Part shown: positions 22,075 through 26,505 of the stretch, one piece after another
How positions within the stretch are numbered: the first letter of the stretch is position 1
Layout of the letters: each line of letters begins with the position of its first letter
DNA from: Bacteroidales bacterium
GTDB lineage: Bacteria; Bacteroidota; Bacteroidia; Bacteroidales; P3
Length of the DNA stretch: 44,504 nucleotides
Assembly (NCBI GenBank): GCA_017522105.1
Contig: JAFXAA010000022.1
Span: 1-44,504, forward strand
Direction of reading: 5' to 3'
Made by a program: the position numbers and the translations under genes
Notes under the pieces: generated by a model
What the model saw: the letters and a program-made list of their open reading frames with translations, nothing else
Told to the model about the DNA's origin: nothing
Database searches by the model: none

Positions 22075-22117
22075 ATAAAGCACGACCCTCGCTCTCGCGG
22101 CGAGGGTCGTGCTTTAT
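22075..22117. terminator. Bidirectional terminator shared by rpmA and the DAHP synthase gene
   Basis: Perfect 18-bp stem (22075-22092 with 22100-22117) and a 7-base loop. The convergent minus-strand gene's TAA stop (22116-22114) lies inside the right arm, so the hairpin serves both directions. Confidence 0.88.
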
Positions 22118-23166
22118 GCCTTGTCGGCCAGCTGGACGCGCATACTCTCGGCGTGGATTTTCTCGAGGAGAGCACGCGTGAAATCATCGTCAAGACCCAG
22201 TTCGGCAGCCTGCCCGAGACGGTCGGCCACCACATCGGCCCAGCGGCCCGACTGGTAGACGGGCATCCGCAAGTCGCGCTTGATGAAAGCTATCTGGCGC
22301 GACATCTCCATACGGCGCGCCAAGAGGGCGAGCATTTCATGGTCTATTTCATCAATCTGCCTGCGCAGGGGTTCCAGCTGCGGCGCAGGTACCGTCGATG
22401 CCTCGAGCGGAGCCATGCCGTCAAGCATGGCAGCAAAATCGAGCGGAGTGAGCTGCTGCGGGGCATCAGTGAGTGCACTGTCAGGATCGGGGTGAACCTC
22501 TACCATGAGACCGTCGTAGTCGAACTGTGCCGCCATGCGCACCAGGGGCGCCACAAGGTCGCGGCGGCCAGCCATGTGGCTTGGGTCGCAGAGTAGCGGC
22601 ACGTCGGGCATCTCGCGGCGCAGGGTCATGGGCACCTCCCACAGCGGGGTGTTGCGATAGCTTACACGCTGCGAGCCGGCAGACGCACGCAGGGTGTGGT
22701 AGGTAGAGAAGCCTCGATGCACAGCGGACACATCGGACACACCGGCCTGCCGCAGGCGCTCTATGGCCCCTATCCACAGGCCCACGTCGGGGCTTGTGGG
22801 GTTTTTGACGAGGACTTTCATGTTGCTGCCATGAAGGGCCTGACAGAGTTCGCCAACCATGAAGGGGTTGCCCGATGTGCGGGCGCCCACCCACACAGTG
22901 TCTATGCCATAGCGCTGGCAGAGGACCACATGTTCCGGAGTGGCCACCTCGCAACAATAGCTGACGCCGAATTCCGCCGCAAGGTCGCGCATCCATCGCA
23001 ACGCCTGCTCGCCCAGCCCCTCGAAACCGCCTGGACGGGTGCGCGGCTTCCACACACCGGCACGTATCAGCCCCACTCTGGGCATGGCGGCGAGGGCCTC
23101 GGTGACCTGGCGCAGCCGCTCGCGGCTTTCGACACTGCAAGGGCCTGCAATAATAGTCTTTATCAT
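22114..23166 (-). CDS. 3-deoxy-7-phosphoheptulonate synthase / chorismate mutase type II fusion
   Basis: 350-residue bifunctional enzyme of aromatic amino acid synthesis. The N-terminal ~250 residues form a type I-beta DAHP synthase barrel (IIAGPCSVESRERL at the N-terminus, IRAGVWKPRTRP, VLVKNP, CDPSHMAGRR). The C-terminal ~90 residues are an AroQ-type chorismate mutase helix bundle (LRRQIDEIDHEMLALLARRM). In Bacteroidota the mutase part is usually fused at this end and may serve feedback control. The start at 23166 is preferred to an upstream in-frame ATG at 23211 because MIKTIIAGPCS is the usual N-terminus, and the extra codons contain a TATCTTTG promoter element (23196-23189). It ends in the shared terminator with rpmA. 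Confidence 0.93.
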   Translation of the reverse strand: MIKTIIAGPCSVESRERLRQVTEALAAMPRVGLIRAGVWKPRTRPGGFEGLGEQALRWMRDLAAEFGVSYCCEVATPEHVVLCQRYGIDTVWVGARTSGNPFMVGELCQALHGSNMKVLVKNPTSPDVGLWIGAIERLRQAGVSDVSAVHRGFSTYHTLRASAGSQRVSYRNTPLWEVPMTLRREMPDVPLLCDPSHMAGRRDLVAPLVRMAAQFDYDGLMVEVHPDPDSALTDAPQQLTPLDFAAMLDGMAPLEASTVPAPQLEPLRRQIDEIDHEMLALLARRMEMSRQIAFIKRDLRMPVYQSGRWADVVADRLGQAAELGLDDDFTRALLEKIHAESMRVQLADKA

Positions 23167-23230
23167 ATTCTGCTCATGAAACAATTTGCAAAGATACACA
23201 ATTTTTTTCAATCGGAGCCGTTATTTTGAC

Positions 23231-23800
23231 ATGAAGATGAAGTTTCTGAAACTGGAGAACTGGCTGCTGGCGTCGCTGATGGGCGTCCTTGGACTCACAT
23301 CGTGCCACAGCAGCAAGCAAATGCCCGCCAGCGAGCAGTCCGAACCCGAGGCCAACCAACCCGTCAAGCCTGCTCCGCGGCCGCGCGACGAAATCAGGCT
23401 CATGTACGGCACGCCGACCATGAACTTCCGCCTCAGCGGACAGGTGAAAGACCCTGCGGGCAAACCCGTGAAGGGGGTGGCCGTCAATATGCTGGAGCGG
23501 GGTCTCGAAGCCACAGCCGACACCATCTTCGGCGACCAGGAAAACATACGCCGACATTTGGAGAGCACCAGCGTGACGACAGACGCCAAAGGGCGCTTCG
23601 AACTGCAGACGAGCGGCCTGCCGCAACAGGAAGTACGCGTGTTGGTGCGCGATGTGGACGGCGAGAAAAACGGCTCGTTCCGCAACAAACTGATAGACGT
23701 CCAACTGAAACCCGAAGACGTGGACAGAAGCAACGCCGGCGGATGGAACCAGGGAACGGCGAACAAGGTGCTGGACATAGAGCTGGAGAGGAAGAAGTGA
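23231..23800 (+). CDS. Putative lipoprotein of an rSAM/lipoprotein pair
   Basis: 189-residue predicted lipoprotein. The signal sequence ends in lipobox LTSC with C25. A Ser/Pro/Glu-rich linker (26-52) follows, then LMYGTPTMNF (57-66) and a carboxypeptidase-regulatory-like beta domain (~67-145: SGQVKDPAGKPVKGVAV). The conserved-looking C-terminal part holds DVDGEKNGSF (141-150) and GGWNQGT (170-176), ending ELERKK. The arrangement matches my memory of a Bacteroidota lipoprotein family always found beside a dedicated radical SAM enzyme, which here starts 27 bases downstream. That enzyme presumably modifies the lipoprotein. The modified residue and the role are unknown. ATG 23237 is an alternative start. 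Confidence 0.82.
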   Translation: MKMKFLKLENWLLASLMGVLGLTSCHSSKQMPASEQSEPEANQPVKPAPRPRDEIRLMYGTPTMNFRLSGQVKDPAGKPVKGVAVNMLERGLEATADTIFGDQENIRRHLESTSVTTDAKGRFELQTSGLPQQEVRVLVRDVDGEKNGSFRNKLIDVQLKPEDVDRSNAGGWNQGTANKVLDIELERKK

Positions 23801-23827
23801 GCATAACGACGTGAGACCCGACGGACA

Positions 23828-24922
23828 ATGAACATAGACGTCAGGCAACGGATTGGACTGGAGCTGCAGCGTCGTCTGCGCAAAAACAACGAGAGGCTGC
23901 ACCCACTGCGCAGCCTTTTTTGGGAGTGCACATTGCGGTGCAACATGCACTGCCTCCACTGCGGCAGCGATTGCAAGGTGCAGCCCGGCGTGAAGGACAT
24001 GCCGCTGCAGGACTTCCTGCGGGCCATAGACAGCCTGACACCGCATGTTGACCCTCACAAGACATTCATAATCATCACTGGCGGCGAAGCGCTGATGCGC
24101 GACGACCTTGAAGAGGCAGGGCTACAGCTCTACCGTCGCGGCTACCCGTGGGGCGTGGTTACCAACGGCTTCCTGCTCGACGGGGCGCGGCTGCAGAGCC
24201 TCATGGCAAGCGGCCTGCACTCCGTCACCGTGAGTCTCGACGGCATGGCGCTGGAACACAACTGGCTGCGCCAGCACCCGCAGAGTTTCGAGAAGGCCAC
24301 GGAAGCCATTGGCTTGCTGGCGGCGCAGCAGGAGGTGGTGTGGGACGTGGTGACATGCGTCAACCCTCGCAACTATCCCACACTGCACGAATTCAAAGAG
24401 CACCTCATTGCACTTGGTGTACCCACATGGCGCCTATTCAGCATTTTCCCCATGGGGCGGGCAGCAGGCAACGCGGAGCTGCAATTCTCCGACGAGCAAT
24501 TCCGCGGACTGTTGGACTTCATCAGGGAGAGCCGCGACCACGACGGCAGAATAGACGTGAGCTATGCCTGCGAGGGCTTCCTCGGCGAGTATGAGGGCAA
24601 GGTGCGCGACCACCTTTTCTATTGCCGCTCGGGCGTGGAGGTGGCCTCCATACGCTGCGACGGAGCCATCGGAGGCTGCACGTCGGTGCGGAGCCACATG
24701 GATCAGGGCAGCATCTATAAAGACGACCTTTGGGAGGTGTGGCAAAACGGCTTTGAGGACATGCGCAACCGCTCGTGGGCCCGCAAGGGGGAGTGCGGAG
24801 AGTGCGAAATGTGGCGCTACTGTGAAGGTGGCGGACTGCACCTGCGCGACGACAACGGAGACCTCCTCTCCTGCCACTACCACCGTCTGAAAAACGGTCC
24901 GAAGAGGGAGAAAGAGCGCTAA
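23828..24922 (+). CDS. Radical SAM/SPASM protein of an rSAM/lipoprotein pair
   Basis: 364-residue cytoplasmic radical SAM enzyme. The 4Fe-4S/SAM cysteines are C38, C42 and C45 (CNMHCLHC in the CxxxCxxC pattern), with C34 and C49 nearby. ITGGEALMRDD (83-93) is the SAM-binding GGE motif. The C-terminal SPASM-like region has eight more cysteines (248, 266, 277, 284, 323, 326, 332, 349), including the C-x2-C-x5-C core C323-GE-C326-EMWRY-C332, implying auxiliary Fe-S clusters as in peptide-modifying enzymes. It is 27 bases from the lipoprotein gene and clearly in the same transcript. It resembles the family I know as the rSAM/lipoprotein system enzyme (TIGR04133-like). Substrate is inferred to be the partner lipoprotein; unproven. 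Confidence 0.88.
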   Translation: MNIDVRQRIGLELQRRLRKNNERLHPLRSLFWECTLRCNMHCLHCGSDCKVQPGVKDMPLQDFLRAIDSLTPHVDPHKTFIIITGGEALMRDDLEEAGLQLYRRGYPWGVVTNGFLLDGARLQSLMASGLHSVTVSLDGMALEHNWLRQHPQSFEKATEAIGLLAAQQEVVWDVVTCVNPRNYPTLHEFKEHLIALGVPTWRLFSIFPMGRAAGNAELQFSDEQFRGLLDFIRESRDHDGRIDVSYACEGFLGEYEGKVRDHLFYCRSGVEVASIRCDGAIGGCTSVRSHMDQGSIYKDDLWEVWQNGFEDMRNRSWARKGECGECEMWRYCEGGGLHLRDDNGDLLSCHYHRLKNGPKREKER

Positions 24923-25107: not shown

Positions 25108-26505
25108 ATGTTCAAGAAAGAAACTTACATAGCACGCCGCGAACAACTGCGCAAGGACGTAGGCCACGGCTTAATTATCATCCCGGGCAACCACGAAGCC
25201 CCATGCAACTACAAAGACAACACATACTGGTTCCGGCAGGACAGCACCTTCTTGTATTTCTTCGGCCTGCAGCGTGAAGACTTGATAGGTGTGTTGGACT
25301 GCGACAGCGGCAAAGACTACATCTTCGCCAACGACTACGACATAGACGACATCATCTGGACAGGCCCGCTGCCGAGCGTCAAGGAGCTGGCCGAAAGCGT
25401 GGGTGTGGAGAACACCGACACCCCAAAGAAACTGCGGGACATGATTGCAGCCATGAAGTCGCCCGTCAACGGCAAGCCCATGCCGCACTACCTGCCTCCC
25501 TACCGCGCCGACATCCGCGCAGAACTGAGCGAGCTGCTGGGCATGTCCTACGGCTCAGTGGACCGCCATGCGTCCATGGAGCTCATACTGGCATGCGTAA
25601 AGCAGCGCTCCATCAAAAGTGCTGAAGAGATTGAAGAGATTGAGAAAGCAATAGCAACGGCATACAACATGCACGTTGGCGCCATGAAGATGGCCATGCC
25701 CGGACGCTACGAATACGAGCTGGCAGGCTTCATGGAGGGCGAGGCATGGAAGGGCAACGGCCCCGTAAGCTTCCCCGTCATCATGACAGTGCACGGAGAG
25801 ACTCTGCACAACCACGGGCACAACAACCGCCTGGAGGTCGGGCGCATGCTGGTGATGGACGCCGGATGCGAGACGCCAATGAACTATTGCTCCGACATCA
25901 CCCGCACGGTACCCGTGGGAGGCAAATTCAACGACAGGCAGAAGACCATATACGAGATAGTGCTCAGCGCACAGCTTGAGGCTGCACGAGTCACGCGGCC
26001 AGGCATCACCTACAAGGAAGTGCATACCGCAGCGAGCCGCAAACTGGCAGAAGGGTATAAGAGTATCGGCATACTGAAAGGCGAAGTGGACGACATTGTG
26101 GCCAACGGAGCCCACAGCCTGCTCATGCCCCACGGCCTGGGCCACATGATGGGTCTGGATGTGCACGACATGGAAAACTACGGCCAGATAAACGTCGGAT
26201 ATGACGAGGAGACACGTCCGAGCGAGCAGTTCGGTCTGGGCAGCCTGCGCTGCGGCCGCCGCCTGCAGCCAGGATTCGTCATCACCGACGAGCCGGGATG
26301 CTACTTCATCCCCGCACTCATAGACAAATGGCAGGCCGAAGGCACCAACAAAGACTTCATCAACTTCAGCGAGCTGGAGAAATGGAAGGATTTTGGCGGC
26401 ATCCGCATAGAGGATGACGTGCTGGTGACCGAGACCGGCGCTCGCATATTGGGCAAGCCGATACCCAAAACCGTTAAGGAAATCGAGGAAACAATGGCGT
26501 CATGA
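25108..26505 (+). CDS. pepP: Aminopeptidase P family protein (Xaa-Pro aminopeptidase)
   Basis: Metallopeptidase that removes N-terminal residues preceding proline; cytoplasmic (no signal peptide). 465 residues: an N-terminal creatinase-like domain (~1-165, with QDSTFLYFFGLQRED) and a C-terminal pita-bread M24 domain. The five expected ligands to the two metal ions are in place: Asp in VMDAGCE, Asp in SDITRTVP, His in HGLGHMMGLDVHD, Glu in TDEPGCYF and Glu in IRIEDD. The 185-base gap upstream contains no gene; a TATATTTTG near 25041 resembles a -7 element but lacks a well-spaced partner. The nucleoside kinase overlaps its stop by 4 bases. Confidence 0.93.
   Translation: MFKKETYIARREQLRKDVGHGLIIIPGNHEAPCNYKDNTYWFRQDSTFLYFFGLQREDLIGVLDCDSGKDYIFANDYDIDDIIWTGPLPSVKELAESVGVENTDTPKKLRDMIAAMKSPVNGKPMPHYLPPYRADIRAELSELLGMSYGSVDRHASMELILACVKQRSIKSAEEIEEIEKAIATAYNMHVGAMKMAMPGRYEYELAGFMEGEAWKGNGPVSFPVIMTVHGETLHNHGHNNRLEVGRMLVMDAGCETPMNYCSDITRTVPVGGKFNDRQKTIYEIVLSAQLEAARVTRPGITYKEVHTAASRKLAEGYKSIGILKGEVDDIVANGAHSLLMPHGLGHMMGLDVHDMENYGQINVGYDEETRPSEQFGLGSLRCGRRLQPGFVITDEPGCYFIPALIDKWQAEGTNKDFINFSELEKWKDFGGIRIEDDVLVTETGARILGKPIPKTVKEIEETMAS

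Follow-up and report, generated by a model that had tools for sequence, protein, structure and literature searches.

A modular Tyr-Gly tag in the lipoprotein partners of a probable splicease-like radical SAM/SPASM enzyme from Bacteroidales

What does a radical S-adenosylmethionine (SAM)/SPASM enzyme do to the lipoprotein encoded beside it, and at which residues? The question is raised by a two-gene unit on the + strand of contig JAFXAA010000022.1 (Bacteroidales bacterium, assembly GCA_017522105.1), of which we analysed positions 1 to 44,504, hereafter the window. The lipoprotein gene (23231–23800, with its ATG at 23231 and its stop codon ending at 23800) encodes 189 amino acids, and a gap of 27 bases (23801–23827) separates it from the gene for a 364-residue radical SAM/SPASM enzyme (23828–24922). 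On balance, we regard the enzyme as a splicease-like protein dedicated to lipoproteins, with a short X-Y-G-x-P tag as its target and splicease-type chemistry as its reaction. The lipoprotein is very likely the substrate of the neighbouring enzyme. Its tag, M58-Y59-G60-T61-P62 (23402–23416), was missed by a sequence-only reading of the locus; family-wide counts and the presence of the motif in splicease substrates make it, with good confidence, the predicted modification site. The reaction there is probably excision of tyramine. This proposal starts from what sequence comparison shows: the two genes pair, the tag is conserved and does not depend on the remainder of the protein, and the enzyme resembles the splicease family over its full length.

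The pairing itself is already known. The lipoprotein belongs to NCBIfam TIGR04134 (lipo_with_rSAM; 102.7 bits, cut-off 39.8) and the enzyme to TIGR04133 (rSAM_w_lipo; 565.6 bits, curated cut-off 425), which bears out the mention, in the sequence-only reading, of a catalogued Bacteroidota pairing without a product; the two families are named for their genome context and come without chemistry, site or product. The nearest named relatives of the window enzyme are from uncultured Bacteroidetes (76% identity) and Bacteroidales (63%). The source genome, 92% complete, has one place over the cut-off for each family and a second, weak TIGR04134 place below it. Frequent occurrence of either gene without the other had been named as grounds for doubting the link, and here the two families differ. 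Among 393 genomes of the order, TIGR04134 exceeds its cut-off in 58, and 55 of these also have TIGR04133 (the exceptions are G306, G369 and G227), so the lipoprotein is rarely alone. TIGR04133, present in 94 of the 393 at E ≤ 1e-80 and over its cut-off in 87, lacks a TIGR04134 match more commonly, mainly because its partner takes other forms: the TIGR04134 model matched nothing in G026, G101 and G201, where the partners bear the tag on other scaffolds. In a phylum survey of 395 genomes each family was found in three, two of which (G000 and G105, of the window's order) have both. The third member is G552 for the enzyme, with a partner that reads EYGVRE and has no P, and G516 for the lipoprotein, a remote TIGR04134 protein (42.9 bits) without YG in a genome that has no TIGR04133 match at 1e-60.

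The tag emerges from the partners when these are collected without reference to it. Taking the longest open reading frame (ORF) that ends near each enzyme start, 114 enzyme genes gave 111 ORFs (three genes gave none), with YG in 100 and YG.P in 89 of the 111, where shuffles of the same ORFs lead one to expect 37.1 and 1.7. Other flanking ORFs contain YG.P in 46 of 486 cases, second and third partners included, and in 15 of the 250 that are longer than 250 amino acids. A second set came from 324 enzyme relatives in named records: 80 loci were kept, 72 of them (L197–L268) were used and L269–L276, at 24–26% identity, were omitted. Its 70 nearest ORFs (two of the 72 loci gave none) have YG in 62 and YG.P in 52, counts that include chance matches in long genes, namely YG.P in L210 and L237 and YG alone in L217, L222, L239 and L260. 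The first set consists of genomes of the order and the second of named records, and the same species may be in both. When loci were instead inspected by eye for YG, up to about 2.5 kb to either side of the enzyme gene, 108 of 112 assessable loci had, close by, an ORF with a signal and with Tyr-Gly near its anchor, and 100 of 112 had YG.P (L072 and L141, cut by contig ends, were set aside). One enzyme gene often adjoins two or three tandem lipoprotein genes, as in G361 and G297.

What surrounds the Tyr-Gly pair is variable. We pooled 179 upstream ORFs, dropping L210 and L237 and keeping L217, L222, L239 and L260. Across their 167 motifs, X can be any of C, E, V, M, K, L, A, I and N; x is most often T, S, V or P, and M, A, G, I, C, Q, L, F and E also occur there. 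Two or three copies of the tag occur in 24 of the 179. Tyr comes directly after the lipobox Cys in 31 of the 84 nearest-upstream ORFs in which a lipobox was recognised and YG is present, and the distance from that Cys to the tag reaches 80 residues.

The tag also persists when the scaffold around it changes. The window protein represents a form with a beta-domain, and a short CYGTP form has Tyr next to the lipidated Cys. Minimal partners of 51–58 amino acids (L091, L092 and L094) consist of little beyond signal and tag and have no room for the beta-domain, and three lipoproteins (L032, L070 and L100) bear three tags each. L209 has another minimal partner, a lipoprotein of 53 amino acids, and the lipoprotein of L267 fits three tags into 107. 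Proteins with AQYG behind what looks by eye like a type I signal occur in L076, L086, L156, L157 and L161. Distant relatives, at 32–35% identity, from Clostridia, a Coriobacteriaceae metagenome-assembled genome and an Erysipelotrichaceae isolate accompany lipoproteins of 77–107 amino acids with one to three copies of [VL]YGPP (L260–L263 and L267), and the partner in L258 is an 85-residue membrane protein with AYGVP ahead of its transmembrane segment. The sequence-only reading had thought the substrate far longer than usual precursors of ribosomally synthesised and post-translationally modified peptides (RiPPs); this is not general, since 27 of the 179 pooled ORFs have YG.P within at most 110 amino acids (L121 among them is cut by a contig end).

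Several other proteins with the tag are worth recording. A Pro/Gln-rich stretch with three YG.P tags occurs in a 227-residue exported-looking protein of Muribaculaceae (L229, 7991–8674), the C-terminal region of which appears acyl-carrier-like by eye. Homologues of 250–310 amino acids with a type I-like signal lie away from the enzyme gene in L154, L155, L156, L157, L158, L159 and L161; in these, YG is retained as AQYG at what is probably the mature N-terminus, and L154, L156, L158 and L161 have VYPNP-like stretches that, by eye, look like type IX sorting domains.

In the window lipoprotein, residues 1–25 (23231–23305) form a signal peptide and lipobox, read by eye (...GLTSC), with C25, a column in the alignments, as the lipid-accepting residue. 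A predicted structure (predicted local distance difference test, pLDDT, 86) shows a signal helix, a low-confidence stretch at about residues 26–60 and a beta-sandwich from residue 63. The linker proper (residues 26–57, 23306–23401) has a pLDDT of about 55–60, and the model places Y59-G60 in the low-confidence stretch, immediately ahead of strand 1. The beta-sandwich domain (residues 63–187, 23417–23791), which is optional in the family, matches CarboxypepD_reg below cut-off, and Foldseek returned beta-sandwich matches with template modelling scores up to 0.40 by query length. This model bears on the sites that had been proposed earlier, DVDGEKNGSF (residues 141–150, 23651–23680) and GGWNQGT (residues 170–176, 23738–23758), on the grounds that they lie outside the beta domain and look conserved. 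Both are within the domain as predicted: the former falls between strands 134–140 and 153–158, and the latter runs into the final strand, 173–184.

Conservation at these C-terminal segments is real, as G175 is invariant and W172 nearly so in 36 full-length members, and could be taken to mark a modified site. It is better explained by their being parts of the domain. The corresponding patterns, D.D..NG and a W..G tail, occur in just 44 and 36 of the 111 nearest-upstream ORFs, against 100 for YG. Both kinds of segment are retained in the orphan protein L148, which comes from a genome without a match to TIGR04133 and has Asn at the position of the tag's Tyr. We therefore consider modification at either segment highly improbable.

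The tag was also assessed with a hidden Markov model (HMM) of the beta-domain. The model was built from alignment A1 minus the tag; we omitted ORFs longer than 330 amino acids, domain hits whose start lay beyond model position 25, and ORFs truncated ahead of the linker. In the fetched loci it found 147 homologues, of which 144 have YG within 45 residues ahead of the domain. Two of the three others, L148 (G306) and L149 (G369), are in genomes without a TIGR04133 match, and the third, L151 (G129), is a paralogue away from the enzyme gene. Such natural knock-outs, with TIGR04134 over its cut-off and no TIGR04133 match, are few, the search in the family of G306 having covered only six genomes.

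Because the tag often stands just behind the lipobox, with Tyr following Cys in the 31 ORFs mentioned above, it could instead be a sorting or lipoprotein-processing signal, the enzyme modifying something else. This reading is very unlikely. A tag at up to 80 residues from the Cys, and in two or three copies, speaks against such a signal, and it also occurs in proteins with type I-like signals and before the transmembrane segment of the L258 membrane protein. We further searched 149 genomes of the order for the DNA pattern of Q-A-C-Y-G-x-P and obtained 13 matches, with one for a reversed-pattern control. Eleven of the 13 are at TIGR04133 loci, one of these beside a truncated enzyme gene (G022); the other two are in a 296-residue ORF without visible link and in no ORF of at least 60 amino acids. 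In these 149 genomes, the only signal-bearing ORFs with the pattern are at loci of the enzyme. In G022 (L160, 3333–3719) the C-terminal part of the enzyme alone is left beside a CYGTP lipoprotein, apparently a decaying system.

The enzyme has the expected architecture, with Pfam Radical_SAM and SPASM both over their cut-offs. Its cluster motif C38-x3-C42-x2-C45, with HCGS at residues 44–47 (23939–23968), is invariant in an alignment of 58 sequences that includes a splicease-family enzyme from a Nostoc plasmid, and the enzyme carries TGGE and SPASM cysteines at C266, C284, C323, C326, C332 and C349 (24623–24874), C323-x2-C326-x5-C332 among them. The predicted structure is of high confidence (pLDDT 94, predicted template modelling score 0.92), and Foldseek matched it to SkfB, anSME, BlsE, SuiB and PqqE. 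The reference for our comparison is the Nostoc C057 protein, named by NCBI as TIGR04103, a family that we take to be the same as the PlpX splicease family IPR026482. TIGR04133 aligns with it by BLASTP at 26% identity (E 4e-26) and by hhalign over 332 columns (probability 100, E 2.3e-38), and the window and Nostoc enzymes share HCGS, PMG[RN]AAxN and GC[PT]S. The TIGR04133 model gives 149–185 bits to the enzymes of Nostoc, Azospirillum (GDL), Agathobacter and L167, a splicease clade as defined by the tree, and 53–108 bits to MftC (108), TIGR04053, NirJ, PqqE (53) and a Rhizobium enzyme. MftC and PqqE are SPASM enzymes that act on peptide Tyr; both score lower than the splicease clade, and the MftC row has neither HCGS nor GC[PT]S.

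The substrates agree as well: X-Y-G, often as X-Y-G-x-P, is common to the partners of TIGR04133 and to splicease substrates, as compared by sequence. The Nostoc enzyme adjoins a Nif11 precursor that ends in ALYGLPPELF. PlpX spliceases excise tyramine at XYG, according to excerpts of three reports (PMC10533398; PMC11002830; PMC10373908); MYG and LYG are their natural sites, and no leader is needed for a tag of ten residues, PIRP[L/G]YGLPI, so that PlpX can act leader-free, as the TIGR04133 system would (excerpted in PMC10533398). A degenerate PIRPLYGLPI pattern gave 0 matches in the genome contigs searched. For predicted splicease systems the PlpX source quotes a figure of 939 from its reference 40, presumably Scott et al. 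2022 (PMC10533398). The PlpX/PlpY splicease of Pleurocapsa PCC 7319, its enzyme assigned to IPR026482, works with PlpY as a partner (excerpt of PMC11002830), which an excerpt of another article deems too small for a proper recognition domain, citing a 2024 title on leader-independent tyramine splicing via a conserved helix (PMC12710340). The likenesses to PlpX/PlpY are thus a radical SAM/SPASM enzyme, an X-Y-G site (X-Y-G-x-P in several substrates) and tolerance of X. The TIGR04133 system differs in its membrane-anchored substrates, in having one SPASM Cys fewer and in the lack of a detectable PlpY-like partner or Nif11/NHLP leader: the window precursor has a lipoprotein signal peptide where a Nif11 or NHLP leader was sought and not found, and TIGR04134 is its sole NCBIfam match.

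Several results weigh against a splicease-like assignment or narrow it. By score the window enzyme is outside TIGR04103, at 91.0 bits against a cut-off of 725. TIGR04053 (104.7), the heme b synthase AhbD (103.7) and TIGR03913 (94.3) outscore that family, and the support for TIGR04133 plus the splicease clade is modest (84/59) in a tree with five long outgroups only. The usual SPASM pattern is CX2CX5CX3C, and the window enzyme lacks its fourth Cys, with CEGGG where the Nostoc enzyme has CRGGC. A phmmer search with the Nostoc PlpY-like protein P0007, over segments of at least 35 amino acids in 188 loci, gave nothing at E ≤ 1, and a very divergent PlpY could escape it. Four assessable enzyme loci (L075, L080, L099 and L106) have no YG neighbour. 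The paralogue L151 has lost YG although its genome has the enzyme, and G227, with no TIGR04133 match, retains YG in two proteins. The P is not universal: 11 of the 111 nearest ORFs have YG and not YG.P, some of them unrelated genes. Most rows of alignments A1 and A4 were taken from YG-containing sequences, so the invariance of Y-G there is partly due to selection. Another PlpX tag, AVAAGYGVVFP, likewise lacks P at that position, and FtsZ accepted tag insertions in 2 of 16 listed cases, so that the tag by itself is not always sufficient (excerpted in PMC10533398). We use the term splicease-like, not PlpX splicease, for the TIGR04133 enzyme because it is not in TIGR04103 and because PlpY and a leader were sought and not found.

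Apart from its own family, the window enzyme matches TIGR04053 and AhbD best in NCBIfam, which would suit a cofactor or heme enzyme of the AhbD/NirJ kind that is a mere neighbour of the lipoprotein. Pairing with partners of differing scaffolds that share the tag argues against such a role, as does full-length similarity to a peptide-splicing family; beyond the enzyme and partner families, the commonest cluster of ORFs of at least 60 amino acids is in only 13 of 153 loci, with no widely recurring third family. We give a cofactor or heme enzyme very little credence.

The chemistry at the tag is a finer question. C25 is the sole Cys of the 189 residues, leaving no Cys donor in the mature part beyond the lipidated residue, and thioether chemistry of the sactipeptide or ranthipeptide type was rejected for the window lipoprotein on this ground. 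A side-chain cross-link is disfavoured by the variability of X and x over the 167 motifs. For a cyclophane (triceptide) ring over Tyr-Gly-x, the third residue is Gly, which has no beta carbon, in 5 of the 167, and the ring is excluded there but not elsewhere. Since X and x are unfixed and Tyr-Gly is the most constant pair, we favour backbone chemistry at Tyr over a cross-link; tyramine excision is the reaction for which this motif is known.

The enzyme could still act at X-Y-G by other means: it might epimerise Tyr or X, form a cross-link centred on Tyr, or remove only part of Tyr. The tag counts and the beta-domain HMM fit these equally well, and the unsuccessful search for PlpY and the missing SPASM Cys, in which TIGR04133 differs from TIGR04103, speak for them. 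Related SPASM enzymes also treat Tyr otherwise; the mycofactocin enzyme, for instance, decarboxylates and cross-links it (excerpt of PMC8326336). The lack of a fixed partner side chain, the motifs with Gly at x and the fit of the tag to one published splice tag (excerpt of PMC10533398) speak against these routes, which we judge rather unlikely while keeping them in view.

Tyramine excision at XYG might also extend to other relatives. TIGR03913 enzymes, GDL-motif radical SAM proteins that accompany DUF1843 peptides, group in a single clade (100/100) with the Nostoc enzyme of the splicease family. Their DUF1843-type peptides have XYG within the first 20 residues in four of seven cases, two of five beside the Azospirillum and Aureibacter enzymes and two of two in L163, and the four read PYG or LYG near the N-terminus (L174, 2314–2526; L178, 2741–2911; L163, 828–1251); these too may be splicing sites. 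The systems differ from the present one in that the peptides are small and soluble, not lipoproteins, and YG is followed by no x-P in those seven. In the window's order, a 214-residue ORF ending in six KYGYP repeats (L167, 2955–3599, G165) adjoins a TIGR04103-like enzyme that, at 218 bits, is below the cut-off.

Around the window pair, the upstream neighbour of the lipoprotein gene (22114–23211) is on the opposite strand, and 185 bases follow the enzyme gene before the next ORF, at 25108. The description of a C25 lipobox protein and a radical SAM enzyme 27 bases apart in a block of their own was confirmed in its coordinates, motifs and neighbours. The ORF at 25108–26505 resembles Xaa-Pro aminopeptidase by eye, and its family is not among the commonest neighbours at other loci. 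Elsewhere, the TIGR04134 match at G113:C5:112958-113386 (L054) crosses one in-frame TGA. The pair is also carried, with CYGMP, by plasmid pTS1 of Treponema saccharophilum (L170, 4616–6092), adjoining a serine recombinase gene, a site that suggests horizontal transfer.

We picture the pathway as follows. In the cytoplasm, before export, the enzyme would bind the X-Y-G-x-P tag that follows the partner's signal peptide and act on Tyr-Gly. The lipoprotein would then be exported and lipidated, bearing an electrophilic alpha-ketoamide near its membrane anchor. Ketoamides of this kind are known to react with tetrazine probes. Of the earlier idea that the lipoprotein is modified by its neighbour before export, the substrate role is very likely given the tight pairing, the timing is an assumption that we share, and the proposed sites are replaced by the tag. 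As for a use, alpha-ketoamide-type residues reportedly confer protease-inhibitory activity on peptides, as a review summarises Scott et al. 2022 (excerpt of PMC10373908), and for this reason a tethered protease trap is conceivable, a guess that we regard as doubtful. More broadly, and tentatively, TIGR04133 may be a leader-free, PlpY-independent splicease branch that naturally acts on exported proteins anchored in the membrane. Their modular XYGxP tag, in many cases C-Y-G at the lipidated Cys, would be converted to a backbone alpha-ketoamide, and Bacteroidales, with rarer Clostridia, Erysipelotrichaceae and spirochaete relatives, would display electrophilic envelope lipoproteins that trap proteases or are otherwise covalently reactive.

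Our search of a library of PMC papers returned none that names TIGR04133, TIGR04134 or the product name of the lipoprotein, or that links lipoproteins with spliceases or tyramine; the survey of Scott et al. 2022 (Chem 8:2659), which was outside this search, may list such systems. If the proposal is right, a pair that NCBI carries as a 'hypothetical equivalog', with its enzyme in 94 of 393 sampled genomes, would gain a testable chemistry and an exact site, and backbone tyramine excision would extend from RiPP precursors to membrane-anchored proteins. A splicease-type enzyme that needs neither leader nor PlpY would be useful in protein labelling. For the bacteria themselves, a ketoamide beside the lipid anchor would amount to a genetically encoded electrophile of the envelope, with possible roles in defence against proteases.

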